Source of the DNA: Gammaproteobacteria bacterium
GTDB taxonomy: Bacteria > Pseudomonadota > Gammaproteobacteria > Pseudomonadales > Azotimanducaceae
DNA: 64,000 nt
Assembly: GCA_009841635.1 (NCBI GenBank)
Contig: VXLJ01000011.1
Coordinates: 1 to 64,000, forward strand
Reading direction: 5' to 3'
Below are positions 5,120-26,599 of this stretch, piece by piece (position 1 is the stretch's first letter; each line of letters opens with the position of its first letter). The notes beneath the pieces are model-generated. The model was not told where the DNA came from, ran no database searches, and saw only the letters and a list, made by a program, of their open reading frames with translations. The translations under genes were made by a program, and so were the position numbers.

Positions 5120-5136
5120 CTTTCAAAATAGTTAAA

Positions 5137-5165
5137 AACAAGCGCCGATGACATCGGCGCTTGTT
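5137..5165 (-). terminator. Intrinsic terminator between receptor and exporter genes
   Basis: The arms AACAAGCGCCGATG (5137-5150) and CATCGGCGCTTGTT (5152-5165) are perfectly complementary over 14 bp. Read on the minus strand the hairpin is followed directly by a run of T. It sits just before the start of exporter subunit A, so it would end most receptor transcripts while allowing some readthrough. Confidence 0.75.
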
Positions 5166-5185
5166 AGTTGCTTAAGTAATTTGAA

Positions 5186-5215
5186 GGTCGCCACTTCTTC
5201 TCCACAGTGGCGACC
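5186..5215 (-). terminator. Second hairpin behind the receptor gene
   Basis: The arms GGTCGCCACT (5186-5195) and AGTGGCGACC (5206-5215) form a perfect 10-bp stem with a 10-base loop, directly after the receptor stop codon on the minus strand. No clear T run follows, so it could protect the receptor mRNA 3' end or assist the adjacent terminator. Confidence 0.55.
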
Positions 5216-5230
5216 CCCAATTAATGAAAC

Positions 5231-8152: not shown

Positions 8153-8154
8153 GT

Positions 8155-8166
8155 GTGGTGTACCAC
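8155..8166 (-). promoter_or_regulatory. Short inverted repeat at the receptor ribosome-binding position
   Basis: GTGGT (8155-8159) and ACCAC (8162-8166) lie three bases upstream of the receptor ATG, where a Shine-Dalgarno site would be expected; no good AGGAG-like site is visible. A hairpin here could limit initiation. Role inferred only. Confidence 0.3.
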
Positions 8167-8368
8167 GCGTCTTTATCTGGAGAAGTAACACACGTGCACA
8201 TGGGCACATGGGAATATCAAATATACAGATTTAGCGTGAAAAAAGAAGATTCGCAAAAAATCAAGCAAGCATTGGCGTGGCGGCGAGAGCCATAGCGTAT
8301 TGAATCGTGTGCTAAAACGCTAAGTAAAACAGCATATTTACGACAAAATCCTAGCTAGACACCTATCA

Positions 8369-8387
8369 TGCGACACAATATGTCGCA
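8369..8387. promoter_or_regulatory. Operator-like palindrome between divergent genes
   Basis: A perfect inverted repeat, TGCGACA (8369-8375) and TGTCGCA (8381-8387) around a five-base spacer, lies in the 320-bp region between the divergent receptor and ARPP-1 copy B genes. Size and symmetry fit a dimeric repressor or activator site. No regulator gene adjoins it, and its occupancy is inference. Confidence 0.5.
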
Positions 8388-8398
8388 GACGGTGCGAG

Positions 8399-8461
8399 AA
8401 TTACCTCAACTCCGACAACGTCCTTGAGTTGAAGCAAATCGGGCGTTTTACAAAGGTAATT
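8399..8461 (+). promoter_or_regulatory. Structured leader before ARPP-1 copy B
   Basis: AATTACCT (8399-8406) is perfectly complementary to AGGTAATT (8454-8461), and TCAACTC (8406-8412) to GAGTTGA (8426-8432) inside it. In addition ACCTCAA (8403-8409) can pair with TTGAGGT (8461-8467), which holds the probable Shine-Dalgarno GAGGT. The alternatives are mutually exclusive, so the leader could switch translation. This is structure seen in sequence; function is inferred. Confidence 0.4.
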
Positions 8462-8472
8462 TGAGGTTACTT

Positions 8473-9456
8473 ATGAACTTGACAGCACAAAGTTTCCTTG
8501 CCGGTTTAAGAACTGGCGAACCAGTGTGCCGCGACAATCTTTCGATGGTGCCACTCTTCCACGACCAAAACATCGAGCCGGATTACATCACTCTTAAGGA
8601 TGGCATCGAAAACGCCTTGCTCTTCGTTGAAGAAGTTGATGATGAAGGTAGCGTGAATGACATCCTGCTGCGTAACAAATCCGATAAAAAGGCTTTGCTC
8701 TTCGAAGGTGAAGAGGTTTTAGGCGCCATGCAAAATCGTATTTTGAATGTTTCAATTTTGGCTTCAGGCGGCTCCAAACAAAAGATCCCGGTGTCATGTG
8801 TTGAAGAGGGCCGCTGGCATCATGAAGCAGATGACGAAGATGAGCAACGATTCCATGTCGCCGATCGTATGCACTATGCCAGTGGGCGAGCCGCCGAAAA
8901 TCGCGCCGTGAATCGAAACCTTGAATCAAAGCGTGGCTTTCGAGGCGATCAAGGTCGCGTGTGGTCCGATATTGAGGAAAAATCCATGCGCTTACAGGCT
9001 GAATCGCCAACGTCTGCTTCGGATGCCATGTATGTTTCGACCAAAGCTAATTTGGATAAGCACGTAGCCTATTTCAAACAAGCCCCTGCGCAAATCGGAT
9101 CCGTGTTTCTCATACATAACGAAGTGGCAGGTTTAGAAGTATTCGCCAGCGAAAAGACGCATGCGAGTCTGTTGCCTCGCCTCATCAAAAGTTACGCCTT
9201 GGACGCGGTCGATCAAGCCATCATGCGCGACAAGCCAACACCTGATCAGAAAAGCTCTGCAGACACGCTTAGTGCCATAGCTGCGGACGTAAGAACCAAA
9301 ATGTTTCTTGACCAACTCAAGAACGCCTGGACCAAGCAGTTCGACGGTGTCAGCTTAGGACAGAATATCCGGTTCCGACATGACAACCTGACCGGTGGCG
9401 CACTCATCCATGACAATGTGCTACTTCATATGTGCGCATTCGCCACGACGAGCTAA
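8473..9456 (+). CDS. ARPP-1 family protein, copy B
   Basis: A 327-residue paralogue of the protein at 39-1007, same family and full length, with no signal peptide. Nearly identical blocks include MVPLFHDQN, NKSDKKALLFEGEE, QNRILNVSI, IPVSCVE, ADRMHYA and FASEKTHA. The middle and the region around residues 255-285 differ in length and charge. Start ATG 8473 has GAGGT five bases upstream; a TTG at 8461 is also open. It is divergent from the receptor gene and shares its regulatory region. The shared blocks, including invariant histidines, acidic residues and a conserved C-terminal GGAL(V/I)HD motif, suggest a conserved fold, but no catalytic mechanism can be read from sequence. Confidence 0.85.
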   Translation: MNLTAQSFLAGLRTGEPVCRDNLSMVPLFHDQNIEPDYITLKDGIENALLFVEEVDDEGSVNDILLRNKSDKKALLFEGEEVLGAMQNRILNVSILASGGSKQKIPVSCVEEGRWHHEADDEDEQRFHVADRMHYASGRAAENRAVNRNLESKRGFRGDQGRVWSDIEEKSMRLQAESPTSASDAMYVSTKANLDKHVAYFKQAPAQIGSVFLIHNEVAGLEVFASEKTHASLLPRLIKSYALDAVDQAIMRDKPTPDQKSSADTLSAIAADVRTKMFLDQLKNAWTKQFDGVSLGQNIRFRHDNLTGGALIHDNVLLHMCAFATTS

Positions 9457-9611: not shown

Positions 9612-9705
9612 CACAAGGTGATCTACGCCACAGACATCACTAAATCAGATACAATCATTTGAGACTTCACTCGCTGCCGTACCCTAGTTTCTACTCATCT
9701 TAGTG

Positions 9706-11070
9706 ATGAGCAATCCGTCGGCAGCTGTTGCCTCTACCACGCCCGTGCGCAAGCAGTTTGACATGAACGCATCTACCCAAATCTCTGAACGACATGTGCC
9801 AGCCGAATTTCTCCCTGAGAACGTCGAAGCGCTGTCCGGCGAGGACGAACAGCTAAAGGACGCTCAATGGTTCCGGTCTGGTGAGCCATTCCGCTCAATG
9901 CACAAGAACAACCCATGGTTGGTGCCGCCAGTGGGCGGCAACGGCGTCCCCGCGACGAGACCTGATGGTGCTTTAACGAAGCGTTTCCACTGTCCGCTTT
10001 TCGAAGCAGGCCGCAGCGCGGAAGGAGGTGGCTTGAACGGCACGCCTTATTACGACACAACGGTGCCGCGCAAACACAACTATTGGAAACAGTTTGATGA
10101 TCTGCCGAGTGAAACGAAGGACATCCGTAAAGCTCGACGCGACTTAGATAAATATGGCTTTTGCCTGATTGAAGACGCCATGAGCGAATACCAACGCGCG
10201 TATATGCGCGAACGCTTGGAGAAACAGGCAGAAGCTGAGCGCGCCTGCGGCCTAGCCGATATGACGCCGCATTTCCACATCATGTGGACGCTGGTCAATA
10301 AAGGTGATTGCTTCGCGAAATGCATCGAATTCGACCCAGAATGGGTGCAAGGTGGACCCATGATCGAACAGCTGAACAAGGAACTGCTTGGACCTGGCCA
10401 CTACGCGTATTCCTTCGCGTCCAATATTGCGCGACCAGGCAGCTATCCGCAGACGCTGCATCAAGACTCAGGGGCGATTCATCCCATCCAAACACCGCAC
10501 GCGCCGATTCTGGTTAACACCGTTTACATCATGCAAGATGTCAACGAAGTGAATGGTGGCACTTTGGTTATTCCAACGAGCCATCGTCTAGTGTCACAAA
10601 CGAAACCTGGTGAGGAAGTTGGGGCGTTACCGCCAGCGGTAAACGTTGAAGCGAAAGGTGGGACCGTCATGCTCATGGATGGTCGCTTACTACACGGCAC
10701 GGGGGTAAACCACACCGACGAGTGGCGCTACATCATGACGAATTCGAACGTCAAGCCATGGCTCCGCCAACAAGAAAACTGGCAGCTATCGATCGACCCT
10801 GACGTGCTTGCGAACGCGTCAGAGAAACTCTTGCAACGGATGGGTTATTACTCGGCAGGACTATTGGAGATTGCCACCTATTCAGGGCCAAAAACGACGG
10901 TAGCTGTGCGACTGGCGATGGAGAAGGGTGAATACAAGCGGATCCGTGCGCTAGACGAACCCGTTGAACCTTCGATCAAAGAAGAACTGCTGATTTACAA
11001 AATGAAGCAACAAATTGATGCGGCACGAAACGCCAAGAAAGACGTAAAAGGCAACGCGGCCGCGTATTAA
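9706..11070 (+). CDS. Phytanoyl-CoA dioxygenase (PhyH) family protein
   Basis: A 454-residue member of the PhyH superfamily of Fe(II)/2-oxoglutarate oxygenases. The jelly-roll core lies at about residues 135-360, with the metal triad visible as H252-x-D254 (in TLHQDSG) and H330 (in RLLHGTG), followed by an arginine-containing segment that could bind 2-oxoglutarate. The N-terminal 110 residues are an extension with no recognised fold. A GTG at 9703 is the alternative start one codon upstream. The substrate is unknown; the family hydroxylates many small molecules besides phytanoyl-CoA. It is convergent, with a 12-bp gap, with a hotdog dehydratase and a second PhyH gene on the other strand. Confidence 0.88.
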   Translation: MSNPSAAVASTTPVRKQFDMNASTQISERHVPAEFLPENVEALSGEDEQLKDAQWFRSGEPFRSMHKNNPWLVPPVGGNGVPATRPDGALTKRFHCPLFEAGRSAEGGGLNGTPYYDTTVPRKHNYWKQFDDLPSETKDIRKARRDLDKYGFCLIEDAMSEYQRAYMRERLEKQAEAERACGLADMTPHFHIMWTLVNKGDCFAKCIEFDPEWVQGGPMIEQLNKELLGPGHYAYSFASNIARPGSYPQTLHQDSGAIHPIQTPHAPILVNTVYIMQDVNEVNGGTLVIPTSHRLVSQTKPGEEVGALPPAVNVEAKGGTVMLMDGRLLHGTGVNHTDEWRYIMTNSNVKPWLRQQENWQLSIDPDVLANASEKLLQRMGYYSAGLLEIATYSGPKTTVAVRLAMEKGEYKRIRALDEPVEPSIKEELLIYKMKQQIDAARNAKKDVKGNAAAY

Positions 11071-11082
11071 CCGGCACGCCGC

Positions 11083-12177
11083 TTAGGCGGTTTTGCTTGG
11101 CAATTCGATGGTGGCGGTCGCGTAGGCTGTCGCCAAGCCAGCCTGATTGCGGTTCTCAATCGAAACTTCGACTAACAAAGCACCTTCATCAGTTTCGTAT
11201 TTCTTCGAGACGGTGCCATAGACTGTATTGGTGTCTCCGACCACATTCGGGTGACGAATCGATGCATGCAGCTTCTTGAGCGTGCCATAGTCTCCCATCC
11301 AATCTGTTGCGGCTTGTGCTAACCAGCAAACTCGCTGCGGACCATAGTCGAATTGACCAGGCATATTACGACGCTTTTGCGCATGCTCTTCATCGAATCG
11401 ACCGCCGCCACCGAGATCGGTAGAACCTTCAGCTGCTAGGGCCGACCGCGTACTGCGGCCAGTGCCGAGCACGCCATGCGTGAACAAGAAGAGTTCGGTC
11501 ACGGAGTACGTGCCCTTTTGTAGCGGATCTAGCTGATCGCCTTCTTGCACGTCCTCCCAAAATCGTTTGTCGCCGCCTTGACGTGTGCGTTCAAAAACCA
11601 ATGGATCAGGTGCGATAACTTGGCGCACTTGAGCGTCTTTCGATTCACGCGCATACTCGAGGGTGCCGCCGGTGTTTTGGTAACGAGCCATGAGTGTTTT
11701 GATCGTAGCGACAACTTCCTGACGCTGATTCGTGAATAACACGTGGCCGGTATTGAAGTTGATGTCACCGATTCGCGAGCTTGTTTTACGTGTCGTTTCA
11801 CCAACGGTTTCCATCGCTGTGATGGTGTCGTCGCGCCAAATGGGCCGGATAAAGTCGATTTCGGCACCCGCGTAATTGACCGGTAAGTATTGCGTGTTCA
11901 CACGTGCGCGGTCGATCGCACCCGTTTCACCAGCGATGACGCCGAGCGTGATGGCATAGAGGAATGTGGGTGACGCCACTAGATCCTCATAGCGACTCGT
12001 AACCGCGTATTCAGGTGAACGAAATAGTGGGTTGTAGTCCCCGACCCCGTCTGCGTAGCGGCGCAAGTTATCTACGCTCGCTTGCTTCGCCGGGCGGTAT
12101 GGCAATACCGTTCCGATACCTTTGCGATATTCGCTTTGAAATTCGTCAAGCGTGGTAATCAGTGCCGAATCAGCCAA
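11083..12177 (-). CDS. MaoC / FAS1-like double-hotdog dehydratase family protein
   Basis: A 364-residue protein with two hotdog halves. The N-terminal half resembles the FAS1-like dehydratase N-domain (VDNLRRYADGVGDYNPLFR near residue 35, and YLPVNYAGAEIDFIRPI near 110). The C-terminal half begins around residue 205 (VQEGDQLDPLQKGTYSVTEL). Such proteins hydrate enoyl-CoA or related thioesters, or act as (R)-hydroxyacyl dehydratases. The usual D-x-x-P-x-H signature is only partly recognisable (GDYNPLF), so activity is uncertain. It follows the minus-strand PhyH gene by 52 bp and is probably co-transcribed with it, suggesting a shared acyl-CoA or terpenoid-like substrate. Confidence 0.8.
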   Translation of the reverse strand: MADSALITTLDEFQSEYRKGIGTVLPYRPAKQASVDNLRRYADGVGDYNPLFRSPEYAVTSRYEDLVASPTFLYAITLGVIAGETGAIDRARVNTQYLPVNYAGAEIDFIRPIWRDDTITAMETVGETTRKTSSRIGDINFNTGHVLFTNQRQEVVATIKTLMARYQNTGGTLEYARESKDAQVRQVIAPDPLVFERTRQGGDKRFWEDVQEGDQLDPLQKGTYSVTELFLFTHGVLGTGRSTRSALAAEGSTDLGGGGRFDEEHAQKRRNMPGQFDYGPQRVCWLAQAATDWMGDYGTLKKLHASIRHPNVVGDTNTVYGTVSKKYETDEGALLVEVSIENRNQAGLATAYATATIELPSKTA

Positions 12178-12229: not shown

Positions 12230-13162
12230 TTAAGCGGCTTTTTTCGCCTGCTTTGCCCTAGCCGCAGCGAATCGCTTCTTAACGTCATCGGACATGTATC
12301 GGACGCCACGAGCATAGTCGGGACCGTTTTCATCCCAACCCATATGGTCGTCAGCACCAACTAAACGCGCGAACTCCGGCGGGTTGCGATTCAGCATTTC
12401 CTGCGTGACTCGCCACTGATAGGCCTCTTGTGTTTTAAGGCGGCGATGGCAGTGGTAACTGGTCACATTCAGCCTGAGTCCGTCGGTCTTCTTAGGGAAT
12501 GCACCATGCCATATATTTCCATGCCACGCGATAAGTGAGCCCGCTTCCGCTTCGACTGGCACCGCACGACTTTCAGCTTCACCGGGCTGTGGTTGGCGAC
12601 AGTACAGGTGGCTACCCGGCACCATGGCGATGGCGCCGTTGTCCAGTGTGTAGTCCGTTAAGCAATAGGCCGCATTAGCGACGTCCGAACATGCGGGCAA
12701 ATGACCGTCGCGATCGGGCGGTGAGTCGCTATGCAACCCTAGCGAGTCGCGATCTCCTTTCCATTTGACGAATGAGGTCAGGCTCGATAGCTGCTGCTGG
12801 CCGCGCATGAGGTAGTCGATGAGCGCATATAGGGTGGGATTCAAAATCCACTCTTCAAACACACGATCCGCCATGAGCAGATAGAACAACAGGAATTGGC
12901 CGTCGCTTTGTGGCTGCGCCTTGTATTCACCAAACGCGCCATTTTGATCAAGATCAAACTCAATGCCGGTGCGTTCCGTGCATAAACGCAGCACGGTGCT
13001 CCTGATGCGTTCAAAAAAGGCTTTGTCTGCTACTTTGTCCGGCGGTACAACGGTGAATCCGTAGGTATCGAGTTCGCAAATGTTTTCCTCAAGACCCAAG
13101 CCACGGATGCGGTTGTAGGTCTGATTGAGAGCTTCGGTGGACTTGAATTTGCCAAATTCCAT
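12230..13162 (-). CDS. Phytanoyl-CoA dioxygenase (PhyH) family protein
   Basis: A 310-residue Fe(II)/2-oxoglutarate oxygenase of the PhyH superfamily. The first metal ligands are H144-x-D146 in LGLHSDSPPD. The distal histidine is in the segment WHGNIWHGAF (H219 or the earlier H213), followed by RLNVTSYHCHRR, which holds a likely 2-oxoglutarate-binding arginine. Start ATG 13162. It is the first gene of a probable two-gene minus-strand operon with the hotdog protein. It is clearly diverged from the PhyH protein at 9706 (different length and motif surroundings), so the pair is not a recent duplication. Confidence 0.88.
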   Translation of the reverse strand: MEFGKFKSTEALNQTYNRIRGLGLEENICELDTYGFTVVPPDKVADKAFFERIRSTVLRLCTERTGIEFDLDQNGAFGEYKAQPQSDGQFLLFYLLMADRVFEEWILNPTLYALIDYLMRGQQQLSSLTSFVKWKGDRDSLGLHSDSPPDRDGHLPACSDVANAAYCLTDYTLDNGAIAMVPGSHLYCRQPQPGEAESRAVPVEAEAGSLIAWHGNIWHGAFPKKTDGLRLNVTSYHCHRRLKTQEAYQWRVTQEMLNRNPPEFARLVGADDHMGWDENGPDYARGVRYMSDDVKKRFAAARAKQAKKAA

Positions 13163-14322: not shown

Positions 14323-15366
14323 ATGGCTACTAAATTCGCACAGTTAAAGCACCGCGTCGGTTCGGCCTATGCAAACTGGTCTGTGACCAACCGGGTGGAC
14401 CGCTTGAATACTTGGATCAATCGTCGCGATGCCAGCGATGACGAGCATGAAACCTATGACCACACCGAAACGGTCAATGACTACTACGATCTTTGCCATG
14501 AATTCATGGAGTACGGTTGGAGCGATTCGTTGCATTTCGCACCTCTTACACCAGGCGAATCGTTAGAGGAGGCGATAAAACGGCACCAACGCTTGATGAT
14601 TCAAAAACTTCAGCTTCAAGAAGGCATGCGCGTGGTGGATGTCGGTTGCGGCGTTGGCGGACCTATGCGTCGCGTAATCAGAGAAGGCAAGGTCACGGTC
14701 GTAGGGGTCAATAACAACGAATATCAGTTAGCCCAAGCTAAAAACAAGAACATTGAAGCAGGTCTTGATGAGCAGGCGGCGTATGTGAAATGTAATTTCA
14801 TGGATATGAGCGAACTTGAAGCGGAGTCGTTCGATGCGGGTTACGCCATTGAATCGACCTGCCATGCACCTGATAAGTTAGGTGCATTTAAACAGATATT
14901 TCGCCTTTTAAAACCTGGCGCTTTGTTGTGGGGTCAGGAAATGTGCTTGACGGATGCGTTTGATGCTAGTAGTGCATCGCATCAGCTTATCAAGCGACAA
15001 TTAATGGAAGGTATTGCGCTTAACGAGATCGCTTCGTTCGACGAGGTCAATCGCACCATCGAGGCGGCCGGATTTGAAGTACTTGAAGCGTCAAATCTAG
15101 ACGTTAAGGAAGGTCCAAGCGTGCCTTGGTACAGTCCAATGCAAAGTCGTTATGGCACCGTCGGCAATTTCTTCCGGCGCACACCTCTAGGTCGCAAGCT
15201 GGTTTTACGCACGATTCAAGTTGCTGAACTTATGCGCATATTCCCTAAGCAGTCTCATAATGTCATTCAATTCATGGACCGTACAGCGGCAGCATACGTA
15301 GACGGTGGCAAAACAGGACTTTTTACGCCACTGTACTGTTATTTAGCGCGCAAACCTAGCAACTAA
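14323..15366 (+). CDS. Sterol C24-methyltransferase (Erg6/SMT)-like SAM methyltransferase
   Basis: A 347-residue class I SAM methyltransferase that matches eukaryotic sterol C24-methyltransferases along its whole length. Landmarks in order: YYDLCHEFMEYGW and SLHFAPL (sterol-binding region I), VVDVGCGVGGPMRRV (SAM motif I), GVNNNEYQLAQAK, YAIESTCHAPDK, LKPGALLWGQEM, a PWYSPM segment, and the C-terminal sterol methyltransferase domain ending GGKTGLFTPLYCYLARKP. In eukaryotes this enzyme transfers a methyl group to C24 of the sterol side chain. In a bacterium the acceptor could be a scavenged sterol, a hopanoid-like lipid or another isoprenoid. No cyclase or epoxidase gene is in the window. It lies 111 bp after birA on the same strand. 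Confidence 0.88.
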   Translation: MATKFAQLKHRVGSAYANWSVTNRVDRLNTWINRRDASDDEHETYDHTETVNDYYDLCHEFMEYGWSDSLHFAPLTPGESLEEAIKRHQRLMIQKLQLQEGMRVVDVGCGVGGPMRRVIREGKVTVVGVNNNEYQLAQAKNKNIEAGLDEQAAYVKCNFMDMSELEAESFDAGYAIESTCHAPDKLGAFKQIFRLLKPGALLWGQEMCLTDAFDASSASHQLIKRQLMEGIALNEIASFDEVNRTIEAAGFEVLEASNLDVKEGPSVPWYSPMQSRYGTVGNFFRRTPLGRKLVLRTIQVAELMRIFPKQSHNVIQFMDRTAAAYVDGGKTGLFTPLYCYLARKPSN

Positions 15367-15433
15367 GCACGTCGGTTCATACATCTGTTTAATCCGTGTG
15401 AACCTGGATTTTTGGTCAGGTCCAGTGGCGCTG

Positions 15434-16153
15434 TTAGGGTTGCCCGAGAATGTCGTTCAAGAACGTATCAGTGGCGCGAGTCACAGTGTCTGACAGAATT
15501 TCGCCAGCTATACGGTTGAATCTGAATCGATTGGGTAGCAGTTGCGGATAGCGAGGCGAGCGTATGTTTTTAAGATCATTGGGTTCGGCGTCGCCCTTCT
15601 TTACGTCATAACTTAAAGCACGGCGTTCGTGCACCTCTAGATAACTCATGGCGTCCAAAAGTGCCGATTTTTGTAGTTGGTTGCACACAATCACATCGTA
15701 AAGGTCTCTTGCCACGTAACTATTCGAATTTACCATTCGACCACGTAGCTTTTTAAACAATATCTCTACGTTTGTTTCAACCGCTATGCCGGTTGAGATC
15801 TCGATATCATCACTGATTGGATTATTCGTAACCCGAGGTGCTGAATAAAAAGATACTTCACCGGTTGGCGTCACACAACTGAAACCGCCTAAATTGAATC
15901 TCAAGTTTGAGATCGAGCCATTGGACTCGCGCTCGTGTAATCGGATTTCTATTTCTTGCCAACCATCAGCCGAACGAAACCGCGCCGTTTCACGTTCGTC
16001 AGCGAAAAGGTCGATATCTGTGCTAGTACGGTGTTGCTATCTCGCTGCTAGTGCCGTTCCAACACCTAATGCAACCATGGAGCGAGGTAACCAAAGGTCA
16101 AGGAGCTCAACGAGCCAATGCAGAGATTCTTGAAGTTGATTGGAGAGAGTCAA
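15434..16153 (-). pseudogene. AbiEii/AbiGii-type nucleotidyltransferase toxin, interrupted by an amber codon
   Basis: Reading the minus strand from about TTG 16153 gives a nucleotidyltransferase of the AbiEii toxin family (type IV-like toxin-antitoxin). The diagnostic motif is readable as LGVGTALAAR, then a TAG at 16039-16037, then QHRTSTDIDLF: the family normally has one residue between arginine and the HR-S-D-D-LF block. Translation after the stop stays in the same frame to 15434, including NVEILFKKLRGR and ARDLYDV, which fit the family C-terminal half. A single base change would explain the stop. Alternatives are amber readthrough or a sequencing error. The upstream gene ends 10 bases before it, as toxin partners do. 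Confidence 0.75.
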
Positions 16154-16163
16154 GCGTATGAAG

Positions 16164-16613
16164 TCAACGACCTAAATTGCAGTGCAAGCGATACATGCGT
16201 TGTTCGTTCGGTGGAGGTTCGTGGCCCGGTGCGCGGCAATTCAGCCACTCGGCGACGAATGGATGCCTGATTCTACAGGCGATCATGGTGCGCGCCAACT
16301 CGTACAGAGAAGCGCCACAACAATGCCGAAATAATCGGATGTTCAGACCGTCGCATTGCTCAAACACCTCATACATATAGCATTTTTGCTGCTTATTCAA
16401 GTCGCCGCTACGAACTAGGTCCCTTATCTCGTAAGGAGTCATTTTGTAGCTGTGACCAGCCATACGTGGTCCGGTCAAACTTCCAATGATCGCCTTGTCA
16501 AAATCTGCCCGAACGCGCGCACGAGGAAAATCAAAGCATTCAAGCGGCAAGATGTCGCGCCGTCGGCGCCAGGCGAATACCGAATCCGGAAACTCAAGTT
16601 TCGTCGTTGCCAT
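16164..16613 (-). CDS. Hypothetical protein, possible partner of the AbiEii-like toxin
   Basis: A 149-residue protein I do not recognise. It is basic and arginine-rich, with the segment MTPYEIRDLVRSGDL in the middle and four cysteines and several histidines in its second half (CCGASLYELARTMIACRIRHPFVAEW). No signal peptide or membrane helix is visible. The gene stops 10 bases before the probable start of the nucleotidyltransferase reading frame, the spacing and order expected of an antitoxin-toxin pair. It does not show the winged-helix signature of typical AbiEi antitoxins that I can recognise, so the antitoxin role rests on position alone. Confidence 0.55.
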   Translation of the reverse strand: MATTKLEFPDSVFAWRRRRDILPLECFDFPRARVRADFDKAIIGSLTGPRMAGHSYKMTPYEIRDLVRSGDLNKQQKCYMYEVFEQCDGLNIRLFRHCCGASLYELARTMIACRIRHPFVAEWLNCRAPGHEPPPNEQRMYRLHCNLGR

Positions 16614-16705
16614 GCGAGTGCAGTGTTCTTTACCCTCGATTTGATTTTAGTAGGAAATTACCAAACGCCGCGAGTTCCTTTTCGTCTGACCTGGTGGGAT
16701 TGAAC

Positions 16706-17566
16706 TCAGCTAAATCCATTTACGCCAGGGGTCCAGTTGTATATCCGTGCGACGTTAGCACCCATTAAGAGTTCTTTCTCATCGGCGTTTAAAAAAGCCA
16801 TTTCGTGGAAGGCATTCACACCTTCTGCATAGGTCAGGAGGTTGGTCGCTCGCGTCCAATCCGTGCCCCAAAGACATCGCGTGATATCGAAAGCATCAAA
16901 GATCTGTTTCAAGGGCTCCCAGATATCGCGAAATGGGAAAGGTTCGTGACTGAGAGTGCATGCACCCGTGATTTTGATGGCGACGTTGTCAAACTGAGTG
17001 AGCGCAAGCACTTTTGGCAATTCGTTGAACGGATTAGCAGGTGCAGGTGGTTCAAAAGGCTGACGTAAACCCAAGTGGTCTAGCACAAGCTGCGTGTCCG
17101 GATACCGGGCCGCCAAACCGCCTAGTAAAGCTGGATTTCCCCAACAGAGGATGTTTACGGGCAATTTAGCTTGGACTGCCGCTGCGAGGATTCGGTTTAA
17201 ACCTGGATCTTCAGCGGTATAGGCGAATGGGTCAGGCAGCATGATGCGAGCACCGACCGTGCCGTTCAAACGCGCCCATTCGGTCACTTGTTCGGCAACA
17301 TCCTCTGCCTGCGGGTCGAATGGTCTGATCAATCCAAACCGATTTGGATGCTTTGCATGAACTTCGAGTGCATAACTTGCGTCGTAGCGATACATGCTGT
17401 AGGGTGACACCAACAACGCACCATCGACCCCGACCTCGTCCATGGCCGCTACCATTTGGTCGCCCGTAACCTCTCCAGGGCCGTGCAGAAATCCTTGCCA
17501 AGGTCGTTCGGGTCGATCACGTTCATAGGCATGAACTTGCGCGTCAATGATTCGGTTGTTTGGCAT
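16706..17566 (-). CDS. Amidohydrolase (amidohydrolase_2) family TIM-barrel hydrolase
   Basis: A 286-residue member of the amidohydrolase-2 family, related to 2-pyrone-4,6-dicarboxylate lactonase and other metal or metal-free lactonases and decarboxylases. The first strand reads RIIDAQVHAYERD, in which the first histidine of the usual H-x-H is Gln10 while His12 is kept. Later landmarks are LVLDHLGLRQP, NVAIKITG and the C-terminal RCLWGTDWTRA with the catalytic aspartate. The substrate is unknown. Start ATG 17566. It is divergent from the pyrimidine-dimer glycosylase-like gene and stands 92 bp from the hypothetical/AbiEii pair, so it is likely a single-gene unit. Confidence 0.85.
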   Translation of the reverse strand: MPNNRIIDAQVHAYERDRPERPWQGFLHGPGEVTGDQMVAAMDEVGVDGALLVSPYSMYRYDASYALEVHAKHPNRFGLIRPFDPQAEDVAEQVTEWARLNGTVGARIMLPDPFAYTAEDPGLNRILAAAVQAKLPVNILCWGNPALLGGLAARYPDTQLVLDHLGLRQPFEPPAPANPFNELPKVLALTQFDNVAIKITGACTLSHEPFPFRDIWEPLKQIFDAFDITRCLWGTDWTRATNLLTYAEGVNAFHEMAFLNADEKELLMGANVARIYNWTPGVNGFS

Positions 17567-17607
17567 GACTGCTTTTGTGGTACGAAGCTCGCAAAATTTA
17601 AAGAAAG

Positions 17608-17640
17608 TTCACTTTGCCGACCAATGGCATACGAAGTGAA
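17608..17640. promoter_or_regulatory. Imperfect palindrome between divergent genes
   Basis: TTCACTT (17608-17614) mirrors AAGTGAA (17634-17640), and inside them TGCC (17615-17618) mirrors GGCA (17626-17629). It lies in the 136-bp region between the amidohydrolase and the glycosylase-like gene. It may be a regulator site or simply AT-rich promoter structure. Confidence 0.3.
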
Positions 17641-17702
17641 AGCGATTTATTGGATTCGGCGTGCGATTTGCTTTATTTGAGCAATGTTTAAAAGGTAGTT
17701 AA

Positions 17703-18134
17703 GTGCGTCTTTGGACCATTCATCCTTGTCATCTAGATTCGCGTGGATTGGTCGCGCTATGGCGTGAGGGGCTATTGGCGCAGGCGGTTTTAAAAGGTGA
17801 AACTCAGGGGTATCGAAACCATCCACAGTTGGCTAGGTTTAAGGCACAGGCATCGCCCAAGGCTTGTATTGGCGCATATCTCGTGGCGGTGCATGCGGAA
17901 TCACTAGAACGTGGCTATAGGTTTGATGAGAGCAAGATTGCGGAAGTCGCTTATAGTGGATTCATCGATGTTAGTACAGGTCAGATTCAATTTGAGTGGC
18001 AACATTTGCAAGCCAAGCTAGCCATCCGATCACCTGAGCACTATGCGTCTCAAACCACGGTGAAACCGCGACTACATCCTTTATTCAGATTACGTCCCGG
18101 GGGCATTGAGTCCTGGGAGCGCTCAACAACCTGA
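17703..18134 (+). CDS. Pyrimidine dimer DNA glycosylase/endonuclease V family protein
   Basis: A 143-residue protein that matches the bacterial branch of the pyrimidine-dimer glycosylase family (T4 endonuclease V-like). Typical features are the N-terminal MRLWTIHPCHLDSRGLVALW, then LLAQAVLKGETQGYRNHPQL, and a histidine/proline-rich tail. Such proteins are proposed to excise UV photoproducts, using the N-terminal amine in the phage enzyme. Here residue 2 is arginine rather than threonine, so the mechanism may differ. GTG start at 17703 with AAAGG seven bases upstream. Confidence 0.8.
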   Translation: MRLWTIHPCHLDSRGLVALWREGLLAQAVLKGETQGYRNHPQLARFKAQASPKACIGAYLVAVHAESLERGYRFDESKIAEVAYSGFIDVSTGQIQFEWQHLQAKLAIRSPEHYASQTTVKPRLHPLFRLRPGGIESWERSTT

Positions 18135-18233
18135 AACATCCCACGTTGTCGACCGGCTCGCCGATTGCCAAACGGCTAGGAGGCTAGCCCGCGACGGTTC
18201 GTGAGCCGACATTAGAGGTGGTAGATTGGGCTA

Positions 18234-18255
18234 ACCCACCCCTTTCGAGGTGGGT
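18234..18255. terminator. Hairpin between convergent genes
   Basis: ACCCACC (18234-18240) pairs with GGTGGGT (18249-18255). It lies between the stops of the glycosylase-like gene and the giant surface-protein gene and could serve either strand. No strong T run follows, so it is a tentative terminator. Confidence 0.45.
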
Positions 18256-18264
18256 CATTAAGGC

Positions 18265-21200
18265 TTAGAAGCTCAATCGAATCGAAGCTTGAACGTTAGC
18301 TGCTGCTTTGTCGTGCAGACCAACTGTGCGCCCAACTGCTATCTGGGATGATATCGTCGTTTTCGTGCGAGCAGCCTGATCAAACTTCACGCCGAATTGT
18401 GATGTTTGTCTGAGCATATTCGCACTCACATGTGCAATGAATGGCGTAACGATGAACTTTTCGGCAGCCGTTAGGAAGCCGTAGCCCAACTGTGCTTCAA
18501 CGTGCATTTGGTTCGAACGCGGTTCAAGATGAAGCGACGATGAATGACCAGATCCAAGTTCGCTACTAACTGCAGTCGCCCAGATTTCACTAGCGCCATA
18601 GTGGTTTTTGCCCCATCGTGGCGAAATGCTGGCCGACAAACCGCGACCATTCATGGCAGGATTGATTGTTGCACTCATCGCCATGCCACGCTCGCTGAAA
18701 GCTTGCGGGCCTTCCACTTCGAACGACCTACCAGACAGCTCGATGCTCAGTGCTTGGTAGGTGAGTTTGAGACCACCCGCCAATTCCAAGCCACGATCCT
18801 GATCTACGCCGTCGCGGTCGAGACGGAAATTAATTTCGCTGAAGGGTTCAATGGTTACACCGTTCGACCAATCTAACGAGTATGACGATTCGAGACCACC
18901 TCTGATTCGTTGCACATCACGTGTCAAACTCATGCTTGCGGTTTCACCTGCGGTCGTCGCGAGTGTATTGGCAGCGATATCGCCTCGCAAGGCGAGCTCG
19001 AACTTAGTGGTGCTAGCAATTCGGTGCCGACCCGCCAAGACGGCTAGACGACTGGACAGGCTGCTAGCGTCTTCCTCAACGGCATGCCGAAGGACATTTA
19101 GGTCACCAGAGCCAAGACCGATGGTACCCCATACCGACGTGCCGTCAGTTGGTGCAAAACGAACGTACGGCATCAGGTGCTTGAGCTTCATCGTTAAATG
19201 TTGCGTCACCGTACCGAACGAAGAATTCGCGTCACCGTGGTGATTTGCGATAGCTAAACCGACTACCCAAGCATCGCCGATGGGTTTATCTAGACCCACG
19301 TAGACGTTTGCAACAACACCGTCATTTGCGGGTCCCGAAACTGACTGTCGATCCATTGAACTCCACAGCGACCACGGAGCTGTTGTGTCACTTTGACCTA
19401 ACTTGACACTGAATCCATGGCTAAACGGGGAGGTTGAACCCATCGCGATTGGACTTGGTTGGTGAGAGGTTAAACCATCTGTCACACTCACCGAACTTGG
19501 GTTGGTAGCTTGCTTAAAAATCTGAAAATCTACGGATTGAGAATGATTAGACAACCAAGTTTCGGTGGACATGGCGTGCCAAGCGTCGTTACTTTCGTCG
19601 AGCACATTGCGAGCCTTATTTGCTCTCGCGCCGATGGTGTTGGTCGTACTTGCGAGCATGACGCGCCCCAAACTGCCTAGCGACTTTTCTGCAGCCTCTT
19701 TCAGCTGCTCATCGCCCACGGTGATGTTGGCCGTTAGGGTGGACGAGCTGCCGTAGGGGTCGGTTGCGGAAAGGGTGAGTCCAACACGGCCTTTTTTGAG
19801 TGCTACAAATTTCACATCGACGGGTGTTTCGATCACTTCGATGACGCCAGACGTAGACAGGGTTGAGGCATAGGAAAGCTGCTCGTCATCATCGACGAAC
19901 CAATCCGTGAACGTGAGTTGGTAAGGCTCGCCACCAACCTCTAAGTGAATCGATTCCAGCGTGGCGGTTGTCTGTGGGCTTAGATTGTCAACGATGACTC
20001 TAAAGGTGGTTTGGGTAGCCGCACCGGCGGTATCGATGGCTGTGACCGCGACTATCGTTTCGCCCACAGCTATACCACGAATCGTTAGCAAACCATCTTC
20101 CAAATTGCTTTCGACGATCGAATCATTCACAGTGAGGGTAGAAAGTTGTAGCGGTTCACCGTCCGGATCTAGAAATGTTTCGTTGAGGTCAATCGTCGTA
20201 TCGCTAACCCGCGAAATGCGCTGCACTGCAATCGGTTTGACCAACATCGGCGGCGCATTCACTACGTTCACAAAAAACATGCTTTTGGTGGTGTGTCCAG
20301 CGTTATCGCTCGCCGTCAGCTTGACATGCGTTTCACCAAGTGCCACTGCTGTTAGCGTGAGCTTCAATCCATCGGCATGTGCGTGAACAACATTCGAATC
20401 ATGAACTTGATGATTCAATGTCCAGTTTGAGTTTTGCTGGTCCAGACCCGGCAGTTTCTCTGCAATGTTCAAAACTAATGGCGTACCGCGATCCAGCGTT
20501 TGCGCAGCGTAAATGAGCGCATCAGCTGAGGCAGGCGTCACGGTAATTAGCACCTCGGTGGCGTTCTCGGCACCTTGGGTGTCGAAAGCCTTAATGGATA
20601 GAGTTGATTCACCAGCAGTGCGGGCGAACGCAGTCAAGATGGTCTCTTGATCCAAAATGACTAACAAAACGTCGCTATCCGATGAGCTGACCTCATAACG
20701 GGCAATTCGATCGTTTGGATCGGGATCGCTAAAGACCGTTTCAAGGTCAATTTCAAAAAACTCTGGAATTGCGATCATGTTCTCCGCTGGCAAAGCAGCG
20801 CGCAACGCGTCCTCGTCGATCACTGGCGGTTGGTTGTCGTCCGGGTCATCGCTTGTGACGACGCTAAGTCGAGCCATTGCTTGCGTGGTGTTGTTTGCAG
20901 TGTCGGTCGCGCGCACCGAGATGTCAGCCTCGCCAATGGCGCGCGCGATCAGAAAAACCGATCCGGATGTACTTGGGTTGCCGGAGACACGTATGACGGA
21001 TTCGTTCGATGAAGAAATGCTGAGCGTGACAGCATCTTCATCAGGATCTGTGAACAGGTCGCCTAGCTTGAACTCATGGTACGTGCGAAGTTCCAGCTTT
21101 TTATCGGTAGGCAACGCTGCATCAAAAGCCACTTGATTCAATACGGGTGCTTGATTCTCGGGTGTGGGTTGCGTTACAACAGCAATGCGCCGGATTTCCT

Positions 21201-23826
21201 GGGTTGTATTGCCTGACGTATCAGTCCCGGTGAAAGTCAAGTTAGCTTGTCCTTCAGTGCGACCTAGAAGCACTGCGACTAAGTCATCCCCCTCACCCGT
21301 TAGCGCTACAAGCAGCACGTCTGGTAAGTCAGAGATCACGTTTACTTCCACGTTGTCGCCGTCGGGATCGGTGAATAGACGGCTTAGAGGTAGCTCAAGC
21401 GGTTGGTTTACCACAACCTCTAGATCTGATGGCAGCAGCTCGTCATACGCCTCGGTGTTTACAACAGGTGGTTGGTTCGCTACGACCTCCACGGCAAACA
21501 CTTGGGTTGCGGCTAACCTCGCGTTGTCCGAACCTGTGAGCGTGATGGTTGCGGTGCCGATAGCGACACCGGATAGGGTGATTTGATCGGCTCCTTGAGT
21601 TGTTACGGTTGCAATGCCAGGATCGCTGCTGGTTGCATCGATGATGACGCGGTCGTCGACATCTTCATCGGAGAAATAGTTGCCGACTGACAAGCTATGC
21701 ATAGCTTGCACGGCGACCGACTGCTGCGGAACGGCCCCCATGGCCATTGGCGGGTCATTGACGTCATTAATGGTGATCTCGACATAACGTTCAATGTCTG
21801 GATCACTGCTTGCGTAACCGTCGTTCAAGCTGAGGGTCACCTTGTAGGAAGGTGTCCGCTCGAAATTAATCGGTTGTGCTGTGACAACGGCAATTCGATT
21901 TTCTTGACGTTGGCATGTTGCAGACGCCTCTGCGCATACATTCGTGCCATCCCAGTATGGCGCGACAATCGCATCGAAAGCTGGCGAATCTAAAGTAACC
22001 TCTATCTCATCGGGATTTGAGTCGTCATCCGCGTACTGCACCAAGTTGGATACTGCCGTACCGATGGGCACGTTTTCATCGATTGATGCTTCACTACCTA
22101 GTACGCCGGCTGGTTCGAAGCGGGGCGGTGTGTTGGTGTTTCGAACCTCTACGTCCATCGTCCGAGTGACTTCAATCTCGCCATCTGTAGCAATGACCGT
22201 TACGATGTAAGATGCGATTGGGTTCGTCGAGCTCGTACCGACGCCTGTGAGAGTCACCTGATTCGCCGATTGGTTCACCAGCTCGCCAGCTACGTTTGCA
22301 AAGACTGTATAGCTGACGACATCCATCTCGGGATCAGTGAAATAATCGTCAAGGTTGAACGTTCGCGAACGGCCTTGTAGCAAACGCACGGTTGACGGCA
22401 GCACAGCCTGATTGGACGCGTCTTCGTGGGCGTACAACTCATTGATATTGAGGATTTCAATTTCGATTGAAACAGCTGTTTGGTCCCAACCATCACTTGC
22501 CTGTAGTGTGACCACGAGCGTTTTCGAACTAGCGAGAACTGGGCTCTCGTAATCCAAAAAGAACCCCTGTAGCGCCACGCCTGATTCGGCATGCACGAGA
22601 CCGATGCACATCTCGCCAAATTGGATGGCGCGTGCACCTGTATTCATGCAGTTTTCTACCGCACCCACCAGACTGTATTCGAGCGTATCACGGTGCGAGG
22701 AATTTGCATCGCTATTGAGATCTGTTGCGTCCCAAGCTCCCATCGGCATTGGAACGATCATGGTGGCGTCTAAACTGCCTTGCGGTGATTCGTTCACCGA
22801 TATGGCAAAGCCTGACGCACCGCCGCGAAACTCTGGTGGGTCGTTGACACCGCGCTTGACGAATATGGTGACGTTGGCACCCTCTTCTCGCGTGGTGACA
22901 TTGCCGTTTTGATCGGCAGCGCCAAAGTAGAGTTTTACCCAGTAGACACCAGCAGTGTTCATCCCCGCGCCGTCCGCTTTTGCGATAAGCAAAGGACCTC
23001 GTTTTTCTAGCGACACGATGTCTGGCTCGTCTGGAAGATCGTTGTAGCCGAAACAACGACTTGAGTCCTCATTGAAATCACCGGCTATGCCGGTATCGCA
23101 AACTTCAATAGTCTCTTCCGGTAAGACGACCGCGCCACCTTCTGGGTCATCGAATAGATTGTGAACGCTGTACATGACGGCGTCACCAACTTCAAGATAA
23201 CGCGTCTCACCAGCATGAGCGGGTGATTGCACGAAGGCAAATGCCTCGTCTTTGAGAAAGGGCTTTTCGTCGAAATCAGCGAGCTCAAATGTGACGACCA
23301 AGGAATTTATGGTGCGGTTGGCTGGTGTATCGGCGTTTGCATGTGCACGAAGGGTGAGAGTATGCGGCACTCGTGAGTCGTAATCGAAGGCGGTTTCGCC
23401 CAGTAACAAAGCAAAGTCTGTGATCGACCCGGTGAATCCGTTCGGTGCGGTGGCGTCGCCAAATGAGCAATTGATCGTTGGCACGTCCAATAGGTTTTGC
23501 GGAGAGGTTTCAATCTCAAAGCAAAAATCAGTTGGCGCGTCGTTGAGCATTTCTTGGATTCTCGTATTGAGATTACCCAGCTGCTCGGTTTGTTGAGCTG
23601 GATCCTCATGCCAATCAAATGTGATATTCGCACTCTTGAACGCGTCTTGGCCATAGACAAGGCTGCAGAAAAGCAACGTTGTGAGGGTTAGCAAGCCGCG
23701 AATCCGACGATTCGGCGTGCGATATGAAGCGTCGCTATGCAATTCAGCCAGTGACGGCTTACAACGACTGACCTTGTGGAAAAGAAGCATTGCGAAGTTA
23801 GCTGAAATCTGAACGACCTTCGGCAT
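18265..23826 (-). CDS. Giant cadherin/Ig-repeat surface protein with autotransporter-like C-terminal barrel
   Basis: An 1853-residue secreted protein. A hydrophobic segment (RGLLTLTTLLFCSLVYGQ, about residues 43-60) ends in a plausible cleavage site after an unusually long polar N-terminus. Residues about 60-1370 hold cadherin- and Ig-like repeats; many carry a (L/Y)F(T/S/L)DP(D/E)xD calcium-binding-type motif followed by strand-rich segments and linkers such as NDVNDPP or NQPPV. An alanine-rich helix-like linker (about 1370-1420) precedes a roughly 370-residue amphipathic beta-barrel that ends in SIRLSF with terminal phenylalanine. This layout suggests a type V-like autotransporter adhesin displayed at the cell surface. 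Start ATG 23826 has TAGGT nearby; ATG 23790 is an alternative. Confidence 0.82.
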   Translation of the reverse strand: MPKVVQISANFAMLLFHKVSRCKPSLAELHSDASYRTPNRRIRGLLTLTTLLFCSLVYGQDAFKSANITFDWHEDPAQQTEQLGNLNTRIQEMLNDAPTDFCFEIETSPQNLLDVPTINCSFGDATAPNGFTGSITDFALLLGETAFDYDSRVPHTLTLRAHANADTPANRTINSLVVTFELADFDEKPFLKDEAFAFVQSPAHAGETRYLEVGDAVMYSVHNLFDDPEGGAVVLPEETIEVCDTGIAGDFNEDSSRCFGYNDLPDEPDIVSLEKRGPLLIAKADGAGMNTAGVYWVKLYFGAADQNGNVTTREEGANVTIFVKRGVNDPPEFRGGASGFAISVNESPQGSLDATMIVPMPMGAWDATDLNSDANSSHRDTLEYSLVGAVENCMNTGARAIQFGEMCIGLVHAESGVALQGFFLDYESPVLASSKTLVVTLQASDGWDQTAVSIEIEILNINELYAHEDASNQAVLPSTVRLLQGRSRTFNLDDYFTDPEMDVVSYTVFANVAGELVNQSANQVTLTGVGTSSTNPIASYIVTVIATDGEIEVTRTMDVEVRNTNTPPRFEPAGVLGSEASIDENVPIGTAVSNLVQYADDDSNPDEIEVTLDSPAFDAIVAPYWDGTNVCAEASATCQRQENRIAVVTAQPINFERTPSYKVTLSLNDGYASSDPDIERYVEITINDVNDPPMAMGAVPQQSVAVQAMHSLSVGNYFSDEDVDDRVIIDATSSDPGIATVTTQGADQITLSGVAIGTATITLTGSDNARLAATQVFAVEVVANQPPVVNTEAYDELLPSDLEVVVNQPLELPLSRLFTDPDGDNVEVNVISDLPDVLLVALTGEGDDLVAVLLGRTEGQANLTFTGTDTSGNTTQEIRRIAVVTQPTPENQAPVLNQVAFDAALPTDKKLELRTYHEFKLGDLFTDPDEDAVTLSISSSNESVIRVSGNPSTSGSVFLIARAIGEADISVRATDTANNTTQAMARLSVVTSDDPDDNQPPVIDEDALRAALPAENMIAIPEFFEIDLETVFSDPDPNDRIARYEVSSSDSDVLLVILDQETILTAFARTAGESTLSIKAFDTQGAENATEVLITVTPASADALIYAAQTLDRGTPLVLNIAEKLPGLDQQNSNWTLNHQVHDSNVVHAHADGLKLTLTAVALGETHVKLTASDNAGHTTKSMFFVNVVNAPPMLVKPIAVQRISRVSDTTIDLNETFLDPDGEPLQLSTLTVNDSIVESNLEDGLLTIRGIAVGETIVAVTAIDTAGAATQTTFRVIVDNLSPQTTATLESIHLEVGGEPYQLTFTDWFVDDDEQLSYASTLSTSGVIEVIETPVDVKFVALKKGRVGLTLSATDPYGSSSTLTANITVGDEQLKEAAEKSLGSLGRVMLASTTNTIGARANKARNVLDESNDAWHAMSTETWLSNHSQSVDFQIFKQATNPSSVSVTDGLTSHQPSPIAMGSTSPFSHGFSVKLGQSDTTAPWSLWSSMDRQSVSGPANDGVVANVYVGLDKPIGDAWVVGLAIANHHGDANSSFGTVTQHLTMKLKHLMPYVRFAPTDGTSVWGTIGLGSGDLNVLRHAVEEDASSLSSRLAVLAGRHRIASTTKFELALRGDIAANTLATTAGETASMSLTRDVQRIRGGLESSYSLDWSNGVTIEPFSEINFRLDRDGVDQDRGLELAGGLKLTYQALSIELSGRSFEVEGPQAFSERGMAMSATINPAMNGRGLSASISPRWGKNHYGASEIWATAVSSELGSGHSSSLHLEPRSNQMHVEAQLGYGFLTAAEKFIVTPFIAHVSANMLRQTSQFGVKFDQAARTKTTISSQIAVGRTVGLHDKAAANVQASIRLSF

Positions 23827-24170
23827 GAGAATTACCTAGCACTCGAGAATGGAAAAATGAATGGCTTTGTTGCAAAGCTGAGTGATCACAGCGGTTAAAC
23901 CCTAACTAGACGCGGCATTAGATTTACCTGCTCCACAGGGCCATCGTTTGTTCGCTGAAACAAACTGATGGGTATGTTTTTACTTAGGGTTTGCCTTAGC
24001 AGAGAAGCGCTTTTTCAAGGTCTGAATGGCGACCGCCATTGACTCTTGAACGCACCTTCGCCTGTTCACGGGCGCGGGAATTTTAGTGACCGTAGAAAGG
24101 TTATTGGATCACTAACAAGCGCCTCCTTTGAAACAAAAAGATTTAAGGCTCATCTTCAAGATCGTCTAAA
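23827..24170. other. Upstream region of the giant surface-protein gene
   Basis: These 344 bases carry no convincing coding frame. They hold a small inverted repeat, GTTTGTT (23946-23952) and AACAAAC (23959-23965). The region should contain the promoter of the giant gene, but I cannot place -35 and -10 boxes with confidence. Confidence 0.5.
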
Positions 24171-24506
24171 TTAGAGCACCTGCACTGGGTTAGGTTCTGA
24201 GCTAGGTGGAGTTAGCGGCGCGATTACTCTCCGACGTAGGTATTTAACCGTCACGTTAGCTGGAACATCGATACCTAAATTGGCAAGTTTTTCGCTTTGA
24301 CGAGCGGTCATTTCGTCAGGAATTTGGCAATCACTTGCTTCCCAAGCTCGCTTGTAGTCAACTACTTTGTCAGGGTTGTCGTTTTCAGCTGCCTTAAATA
24401 AGGAGTCTAGCTGACTCTTAACGGTAGCCCGGAAAAGGTCTCTGATAGAGACGGGTACGTTACTAAATCCACCATAAGATTTACTCTGAAACGAGAAATT
24501 ACTCTT
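24171..24506 (-). pseudogene. Open frame without a start codon, probable gene remnant
   Basis: The minus strand is open for 112 codons from a TAA at 24509-24507 to a TAA at 24171. It encodes a hydrophilic, coding-like sequence with segments such as SIRDLFRATVKSQLDSLF, NPDKVVDYKRAWEAS and IPDEMTARQSEKLANLG, and ends SSEPNPVQVL. No ATG, GTG or TTG exists in the first third; the first ATG leaves only about 45 residues. An ATG in another frame lies just upstream, so a frameshift is possible. I do not recognise the family. It is read here as a decayed C-terminal fragment. Confidence 0.4.
24187..24198. repeat. 12-bp direct repeat, left copy
   Basis: GGGTTAGGTTCT occurs here and again at 25564-25575 in the same orientation. 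The pair brackets a remnant frame and the 24567 zincin gene. It resembles short repeats found around REP-associated elements in gammaproteobacteria, but that link is only a resemblance. Confidence 0.55.
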
Positions 24507-24566
24507 TTATCAAACTCATATAGGCATCGTAAGGAGTTGTGTACAGATATTGGCGCTAAATTGTGT

Positions 24567-25562: not shown

Positions 25563-25563
25563 G

Positions 25564-25575
25564 GGGTTAGGTTCT
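25564..25575. repeat. 12-bp direct repeat, right copy
   Basis: Second copy of GGGTTAGGTTCT, identical to 24187-24198, lying directly upstream of the GTG start of the zincin gene. Because the copies fall in the same frame, both contexts would encode Glu-Pro-Asn-Pro-Val. Confidence 0.55.
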
Positions 25576-25801
25576 TCTGATTGTGGAAAATATAGTTTTT
25601 ATTGACAGACTTCACACTGGTCGCCAAGGGAACAATTAAGCGCCGGATTTTCCAGTGTGAGTGATGCTTTTTCTACAGAAGAAGCATCCTTTGTACACAA
25701 ATAATACTAAGTCTTTAATCCACAGCAGGATCCTAACGGTATTTCGGTGGGGTATTACCGAAAACGTAGACACTTTTTTGTTTGAGTGTTTGACCATTGA
25801 C

Positions 25802-26525
25802 TCATGAACTCTGAAAGAATCCCTGCTCAACGGCGTTTTGTGTCTGGTAGTTGAGTTTTGAATGAAACCTATCGGCATTGTAATAACCGATAGTGTCGTC
25901 CAATGCATCTTTCGAAGATGCCAAGCGACGCATAGCGTTGCCTTCGAATAACCGCTTTTTATAAGGTCGCAAGCCAGGCTTCAGCCATGGCATTGTCATA
26001 ACAATCACCGACGGAGCTCATGGACTGGCGCATGCCTGCTTCTCGGCAGTGCTCACGAAACGCGATAGCCGTGTATTGCACGCCTTAATCGGCGTGCACG
26101 AGCATCTCTTCACAGGAACCCCGCGCTGCGGCTTGCTTCAAGGCGTTCACCGTCAATCGCGCATCCTGCGTCGTGGATAGGTCCCAACCCACCACCTTGC
26201 GGGCATTGACGTCCAACACCATTGCGAGGTAGGCTGCTTCCCCGCTCGCCAAGGTCATTGCCGTGACATCGCAGACCACCAGCTGCCTTGGTTCGCCCGC
26301 TTTGAATCGACGCTGCACGAGACTCCGTATCCCATGGGGACGCCCTTTCGAGACGGTGGTCTACCGGCCGTTTTTTAGCGCGACGACCCTGCAGTTGCAG
26401 CTGGCGCATCAGACCATAGACGCGCCGCCGCCCCACGTGCGGGTACCACAGTTTATTCCAACGGCGATCCTGGCTGCCCCAGACGTGCCACGGCTGTTCG
26501 CATTTTTGATAACACTCCACGTACC
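25802..26525 (-). pseudogene. IS3-family transposase (orfB) remnant
   Basis: Three minus-strand fragments together give a degenerate IS3-family orfB. The helix-turn-helix-like part (WYPHVGRRRVYGLMRQLQLQ) is followed after a frameshift near 26300 by the integrase core (LVVCDVTAMTLASGEAAYLA and VLDVNARKVVGWDLS). A TAA at HAD-stop-GVQYTA replaces the glutamine or arginine expected there. SVGDCYDNAMAEAW carries the last catalytic glutamate. A second frameshift leads to the C-terminal GYYNADRFHSKLNY. One nonsense codon and at least two frameshifts show it is inactive. I could not define terminal inverted repeats or target duplications. Confidence 0.82.
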
Positions 26526-26599
26526 GCTAAATGGCAAAAACGGGCTCATTCAGTACTAATATTTGCGTACGGACCTTTAGCAAGTTGAAAGGGTTTAGA

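Follow-up and report, generated by a model that had tools for sequence, protein, structure and literature searches.

The gene at positions 14323 to 15366 of the window (the whole stretch of DNA that we analysed, 64,000 nucleotides of one gammaproteobacterial contig) encodes a protein, P0001, that is probably a SAM-dependent sterol C-methyltransferase. It belongs to a group of bacterial sterol methyltransferases (SMTs) that we term clade A, which is distinct from the canonical SMTs and would be part of a horizontally spread sterol-tailoring cassette. P0001 would use SAM to methylate a sterol, most likely at a side-chain double bond (C24 or C28, possibly of a sterol that is already alkylated), in a pocket where the usual aromatic, cation-stabilising residues appear to be swapped for others. 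In most carriers of the cassette, a fusion of GPP34 and cytochrome P450 and a KshA-type Rieske oxygenase would oxidise the sterol, before or after its methylation by the SMT, and an RND or MMPL transporter would move it across the envelope. The bacterium of the window could apply P0001 to sterol that it makes, to sterol that it acquires, or to both.

The open reading frame is intact, with an ATG start and 347 amino acids, and the reverse strand across 14323-15366 is stop-rich. The gene has these features:

14323..15366, + strand: predicted clade-A sterol methyltransferase (P0001), 347 aa, from the open reading frame, Pfam, BLASTP, and trees
14485..14538, + strand: region I, YDLCHEFMEYGWSDSLHF, residues 55-72, from the alignment to yeast Erg6
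14629..14676, + strand: SAM-binding motif, RVVDVGCGVGGPMRRV, residues ~103-118, with the equivalents of yeast D125, C128, G129, and P133 retained
14842..14871, + strand: YAIESTCHAP block, residues 174-183, with the equivalents of yeast Y192, E195, and H199 retained
14929..14964, + strand: WGQEMCLTDAFD, residues 203-214, replacing yeast AVYEWVMTDKYD; across 97 clade-A core sequences, W-G-Q and M never vary
15169..15357, + strand: Sterol_MT_C domain (PF08498), residues 283-345, from Pfam

As in the SMT family, P0001 combines a class I SAM core (Methyltransf_11, 59.1 bits, residues ~99-220) with a C-terminal Sterol_MT_C domain (residues 283-345), which scores 58.5 bits (cut-off 21.7) at E = 6.9e-16. 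A profile search for PF08498 gave matches in 0 of 14 control genomes, so the match in P0001 is no chance event; the window's genome has two such genes, P0001 and one on contig C30. BLASTP alignments give 43% identity to Arabidopsis SMT1 (residues 37-345) and 36% identity to yeast Erg6 (residues 28-347). VVDVGCGVGGP, YAIESTCHAP, and GGKTGLFTP are all found. By its domains and alignments, P0001 is a full-length SMT-family protein, C-terminal SMT domain included. The initial annotation is thus borne out in describing a full-length bacterial SMT-family gene with the SAM motif, the YAIE(S/A)TCHAP block, and a C-terminal SMT domain that includes GGKTGLFTP. Searches of NCBIfam gave weak matches alone, all far under their cut-offs, and no fitting equivalog model. 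The solved structures nearest to an AlphaFold2 model of P0001 (pLDDT 85.6, pTM 0.87, from an alignment of 37 sequences) are small-molecule methyltransferases, including geranyl- and farnesyl-diphosphate C-methyltransferases, and fold alone is no proof of function. A solved SMT was absent among the structural matches listed, which has no bearing on the fold.

We built a quick tree of 138 sequences and a careful tree of 49. In the latter, clade A, including P0001, is split from Erg6, SMT1, and the canonical bacterial SMTs by a branch with support of 100/100 (the support is for the split and not for a root). The second SMT of the window's genome, on contig C30, falls among the canonical ones (clade B1), and its region I and YEW aromatics are canonical. 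All SMTs, including P0001, are split from gamma-tocopherol and phosphoethanolamine methyltransferases with an SH-aLRT of 99 in the quick tree (the outgroup branches are long). This rules out a tocopherol or phosphoethanolamine methyltransferase and agrees with the placement among the SMTs that the initial annotation supposed. The genome collection holds at least 558 relatives of P0001, and clade A spans at least nine phyla in the 138-sequence tree. Among the best 80 of these relatives, all of the nearest ones are from bacterial MAGs, and sponge MAGs commonly carry clade A. We take 'Plut' in some carrier bin names to stand for the coral Porites lutea. Bin names of clade-A carriers also indicate Rhopaloeides, Coscinoderma, and Ircinia, which are sponge hosts (PMC8163846), with the host of each bin inferred from codes. 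Two different SMTs lie a few kb apart in L107, L109, L095, and L098, where clade A is accompanied by a canonical or third-type SMT.

The sterol-binding region I that had been claimed for the protein is present, but it is not unaltered. Yeast FYEYGWGSSFHF becomes FMEYGWSDSLHF in P0001 (Y81→M62, G86→S67, F89→L70); the equivalents of yeast E82, Y83, W85, and H90 are retained. Where canonical C24-SMTs have the aromatics of YEYGWG (yeast 81-86) and YEW, P0001 has M-E-Y-G-W-S and Q-E-M. These changes are shared throughout the clade: among 97 clade-A core sequences, Y81→M is found in 96, and F89→L, A221→W, Y223→Q, and W225→M (yeast numbering) are each found in all 97. H90, D125, C128, and E195 are invariant in the same 97 sequences, and the H199 position is H or Y. 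Clades B1 and B2 retain Y81, E82, and W225 (yeast numbering). Since the aromatics of region I and YEW are swapped throughout clade A, the C24-methyltransferase label in the initial annotation is not established for P0001, and the SMT that does look canonical in this genome is the gene on C30. The sequence neither justifies nor excludes the C24 label, which is unproven, as Y64 and W66 stay.

One alternative is that clade A consists of ordinary C24-SMTs with a drifted pocket, which carry out C24 methylation (and sequential methylation) of desmosterol-type sterols. We consider this reading evenly poised. Eight of the 10 sponge-symbiont SMTs that were assayed by Brown et al. methylated desmosterol (PMC10070321) and, given how common clade A is in sponge MAGs, some of those enzymes may belong to it; clade A also retains W85, H90, E195, and the SAM site. 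However, the changes Y81→M, F89→L, Y223→Q, and W225→M are nearly or fully fixed over at least nine phyla, a pattern more like selection for a different acceptor geometry than like drift. Also, many carriers have a separate canonical SMT beside clade A.

A second possibility is that clade A has another regiochemistry, such as methylation of the side chain at C26 or of C4 of a 3-oxo sterol. C24 methylation requires cation-pi contacts with the region I aromatics (PMC6997595) and, as residues held necessary for it are swapped in clade A, the methyl group could go to a different position or to a different lipid. The nematode 4-SMT, which methylates C4 of 3-oxo sterols, is likewise an SMT relative without the region I aromatics, although it is a different protein that we liken to clade A by its description (E = 1e-29 and 58% coverage to Erg6; PMC6997595). 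As of 2023, a 26-SMT had yet to be found (PMC10070321), and the oxygenases of the cassette could prepare a different acceptor. On the other hand, most of the SMT core is kept, as are Y83 and W85, and methylation at C4 would reverse the C4 demethylation that is encoded in the same genome by SdmA/SdmB-like genes. We find this reading somewhat doubtful.

The reading that we prefer, a sterol C-methyltransferase from a tailoring cassette, draws on the genes that accompany clade A across at least nine phyla: the GPP34(GOLPH3)-P450 fusion, the KshA-type Rieske oxygenase, a FAD oxidase, and RND/MMPL transporters. Within ~10 kb of the SMT at the loci of the best 80 of at least 558 relatives, GPP34-P450 genes and RND or MMPL transporter genes each occur at 62 loci, the Rieske gene at 54, and the FAD oxidase gene at 27. 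GPP34 is seen fused to the P450 at 58 of the 80. KshA_C is among the Pfam matches of the partner genes, two MMPL types of clade-A loci match the sterol-sensing domain, and the cassette FAD oxidase is ~70% identical to the FAD oxidase of the sterol cluster on contig C35 (below). At L045, L051, and L095, clade A is found beside SdmA/SdmB, ERG24-like, and CYP51-like genes and a non-A SMT, and the cassette there runs directly into genes for sterol synthesis; an epoxidase-cyclase fusion is also present at L045 and L051. The two MMPL genes with sterol-sensing-domain matches (L135:11094-13577 and L138:6147-8477, one of which also matches Patched) adjoin clade-A SMTs in Chloroflexota and other bacteria. 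The heme cysteine and the ExxR motif are present in 57 of 57 GPP34-P450 sequences, and the I-helix is without the usual acid-threonine pair, so the chemistry of this P450 may be unusual. In the open-access literature on GPP34/GOLPH3 and P450, or on sponge-symbiont sterols and P450/Rieske, we found no description of the cassette, and we found no open-access paper on the fusion.

Whether carriers make their own sterols varies. Among 50 further clade-A carriers, 15 have a match of the oxidosqualene-cyclase class (>690 bits), and the open frames of 14 of these 15 exceed 1100 aa and are fusion-like. (Long frames that resemble the epoxidase-cyclase fusion occur in carriers from several phyla.) In the other 35, the search did not find an oxidosqualene cyclase. 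Some of the 35 have weaker matches of 165-300 bits, which we infer to be hopene-cyclase-like from the gap to 690 bits, and several carriers have no match to either cyclase class. In the bacterial family, 36 of 38 genomes with an SMT have GPP34-P450, versus 10 of 163 others. Canonical SMTs occur in all 14 cyclase-positive genomes and in 5 of the 20 cyclase-negative ones; for clade A, the corresponding counts are 10 of 14 and 17 of 20. These co-occurrence counts describe a pattern and are no causal test, and their Fisher values are descriptive because genomes from a single family are not independent samples. (The two SMT genomes without GPP34-P450, G124 and G140, are both <75% complete.) Canonical SMTs track the cyclase and clade A does not. 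The absence of a cyclase from fragmentary MAGs can reflect assembly gaps. G062, a single contig of 4.3 Mb that is 97% complete, has clade A and no cyclase match. Within the genus, G081, G134, G152, and G162 each have two clade-A SMTs and GPP34-P450, without the epoxidase-cyclase fusion or a canonical SMT, and appear to tailor sterols without synthesising them. Carriers that lack oxidosqualene cyclase would need to acquire the substrate sterol (from a host, the diet, or a neighbour), which suggests that many clade-A bacteria remodel sterols drawn from their surroundings. A bolder version, which we find somewhat doubtful, is that the clade-A enzymes form a new functional class of SMT, with another acceptor position or substrate than C24-SMTs, and that together with GPP34-P450, Rieske, and transporters they make up a horizontally spread system with which symbionts from many phyla rebuild sterols that they do not make themselves.

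Third, clade A could have descended from SMTs to methylate a non-sterol lipid (a hopanoid or other terpenoid). Many carriers have a hopene-cyclase-like match without one of the oxidosqualene-cyclase class, and terpenoid C-methyltransferases are among the structural neighbours of P0001. This seems unlikely in view of the several carriers in which neither cyclase class was matched, of the sterol genes that adjoin clade A in L045, L051, and L095, and of the KshA_C and sterol-sensing-domain matches among its partners.

The window's bacterium can probably make sterols itself. Squalene epoxidase and oxidosqualene cyclase, for which the initial annotation proposed to search the genome, are both present on contig C35 (locus L035, G000:C35), in this cluster:

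809-1924: SdmB-like gene
1921-3027: SdmA-like gene
3032-4105: ERG4/ERG24 reductase (ERG24-like)
4027-5505: CYP51-like P450, from a general P450 match and the cluster context
5457-8849: squalene-epoxidase/oxidosqualene-cyclase fusion, 1130 aa
8883-10253: FAD amine-oxidase-like gene
10286-10957: EXPERA-domain gene
11014-12051: squalene synthase

The set for de novo synthesis is complete, with squalene synthase, epoxidase, cyclase, and genes for C14 and C4 demethylation. The cyclase scores 708.7 bits against TIGR03463, under the cut-off of 851. Of the 18 genomes from the genus, 11 have a match to the fusion. We do not claim the fusion as new because fused SMO/OSC homologs are mentioned in PMC10070321, nor the cluster, because such clusters are described in PMC9531527.

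The surroundings of P0001 can be compared with those in two relatives of the same genus (L074/L075):

12230..13162, - strand: PhyH-family dioxygenase, a syntenic anchor with no proposed role, ~90% identical to its counterpart left of BirA in L074/L075
13282..14211, + strand: biotin-protein ligase (BirA type), the syntenic left anchor; the PhyH-BirA order is also found in L074/L075
31061..35342, + strand: DUF1800-like, DUF1501-like, and polyphosphate-kinase-2-like genes (named by sight), the syntenic right anchor
L181:8123-10141 (G000:C51): GPP34 (GOLPH3-like)-cytochrome P450 fusion of the window's genome

In L074/L075, the order is PhyH, BirA, Rieske, GPP34-P450, RND, MFP, SMT, DUF1800-like, DUF1501-like, PPK2-like, nusG, rpl, and rpoB, with the right-anchor genes directly after the SMT. 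In the window, the SMT directly follows PhyH and BirA, the Rieske-P450-RND-MFP block between BirA and the SMT is missing, and the right anchor is ~16 kb off. P0001 thus sits in its syntenic place with no cassette gene beside it. The MFP, RND, and GPP34-P450 genes are on contig C51 and the FAD oxidase is on C35. The KshA-type Rieske gene, for which 16 of the 18 genus members have a match, was not found in the window's genome (97% complete). With the Rieske gene missing and the SMT apart from all sterol and cassette genes, the cassette is broken up in this genome. The intervening ~16 kb (15367-31060) encodes an autotransporter-like protein of 1853 aa (18265-23826) along with an amidohydrolase and small uncharacterised ORFs. 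The genome has several PhyH-family dioxygenases, at 9703-11070 and 12230-13162 of the window (both <5 kb from the SMT) and at L181:15206-17041.

Finally, although SMTs are typically eukaryotic, a eukaryotic or foreign contig in a bacterial bin is extremely improbable, and eukaryotic contamination is ruled out, given that P0001 shares its contig with five tRNAs, nusG, ribosomal proteins, and rpoBC within the window, that its gene order matches L074/L075, and that its nearest relatives are from bacterial MAGs.

Side-chain-methylated steranes are read as biomarkers of eukaryotes or sponges, and C24-alkylation by bacteria is already a known complication. The relevance to biomarkers that the initial annotation saw has already been published (PMC10070321, 2023; PMC9531527, 2022). 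Clade A with its oxygenases and transporters, often without synthesis genes, offers a concrete gene set for the origin of unusual sponge sterols, to which symbionts could contribute if clade A is indeed a new class. We speculate that clade A is a candidate for the side-chain methyltransferases that are still missing, such as the 26-SMT.

Compared with the eukaryotic C24-SMTs (Erg6 and plant SMT1/SMT2), clade A shows full-length homology (36-43% identity to Erg6/SMT1) and shares the SAM site and the YAIE(S/A)TCHAP block, but differs at Y81→M, F89→L, Y223→Q, and W225→M. The SMTs of Brown et al. (PMC10070321) are, like P0001, bacterial proteins with a methyltransferase core and Sterol_MT_C; several are from sponge symbionts and some are in sterol clusters. 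Unlike the clade-A cassette, the clusters in the main text of that paper are erg/sdm clusters only, with no mention of P450 or transport. Steroid clusters of Ircinia symbionts, in 10 phyla and with signs of horizontal transfer, have an ERG24-CYP51-LSS core with a reductase upstream and an SMT or squalene synthase downstream, which matches the cluster on C35; in the part of that work considered here, they are synthesis clusters, and the clade-A cassette is not described (PMC9531527). As with the sterol transport genes BstA/B/C of Methylococcus (PMC10942540), clade-A loci have RND/MMPL-type transporter genes beside sterol genes, but the clade-A transporters are of several alternative types and lie beside SMT, P450, and Rieske genes. 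Bacterial SMTs and sponge-symbiont sterol clusters have thus been published already; beyond them are the presence of a de novo sterol cluster and a second, canonical SMT in the genome that carries P0001, the separate clade A with its altered pocket, and the cassette.
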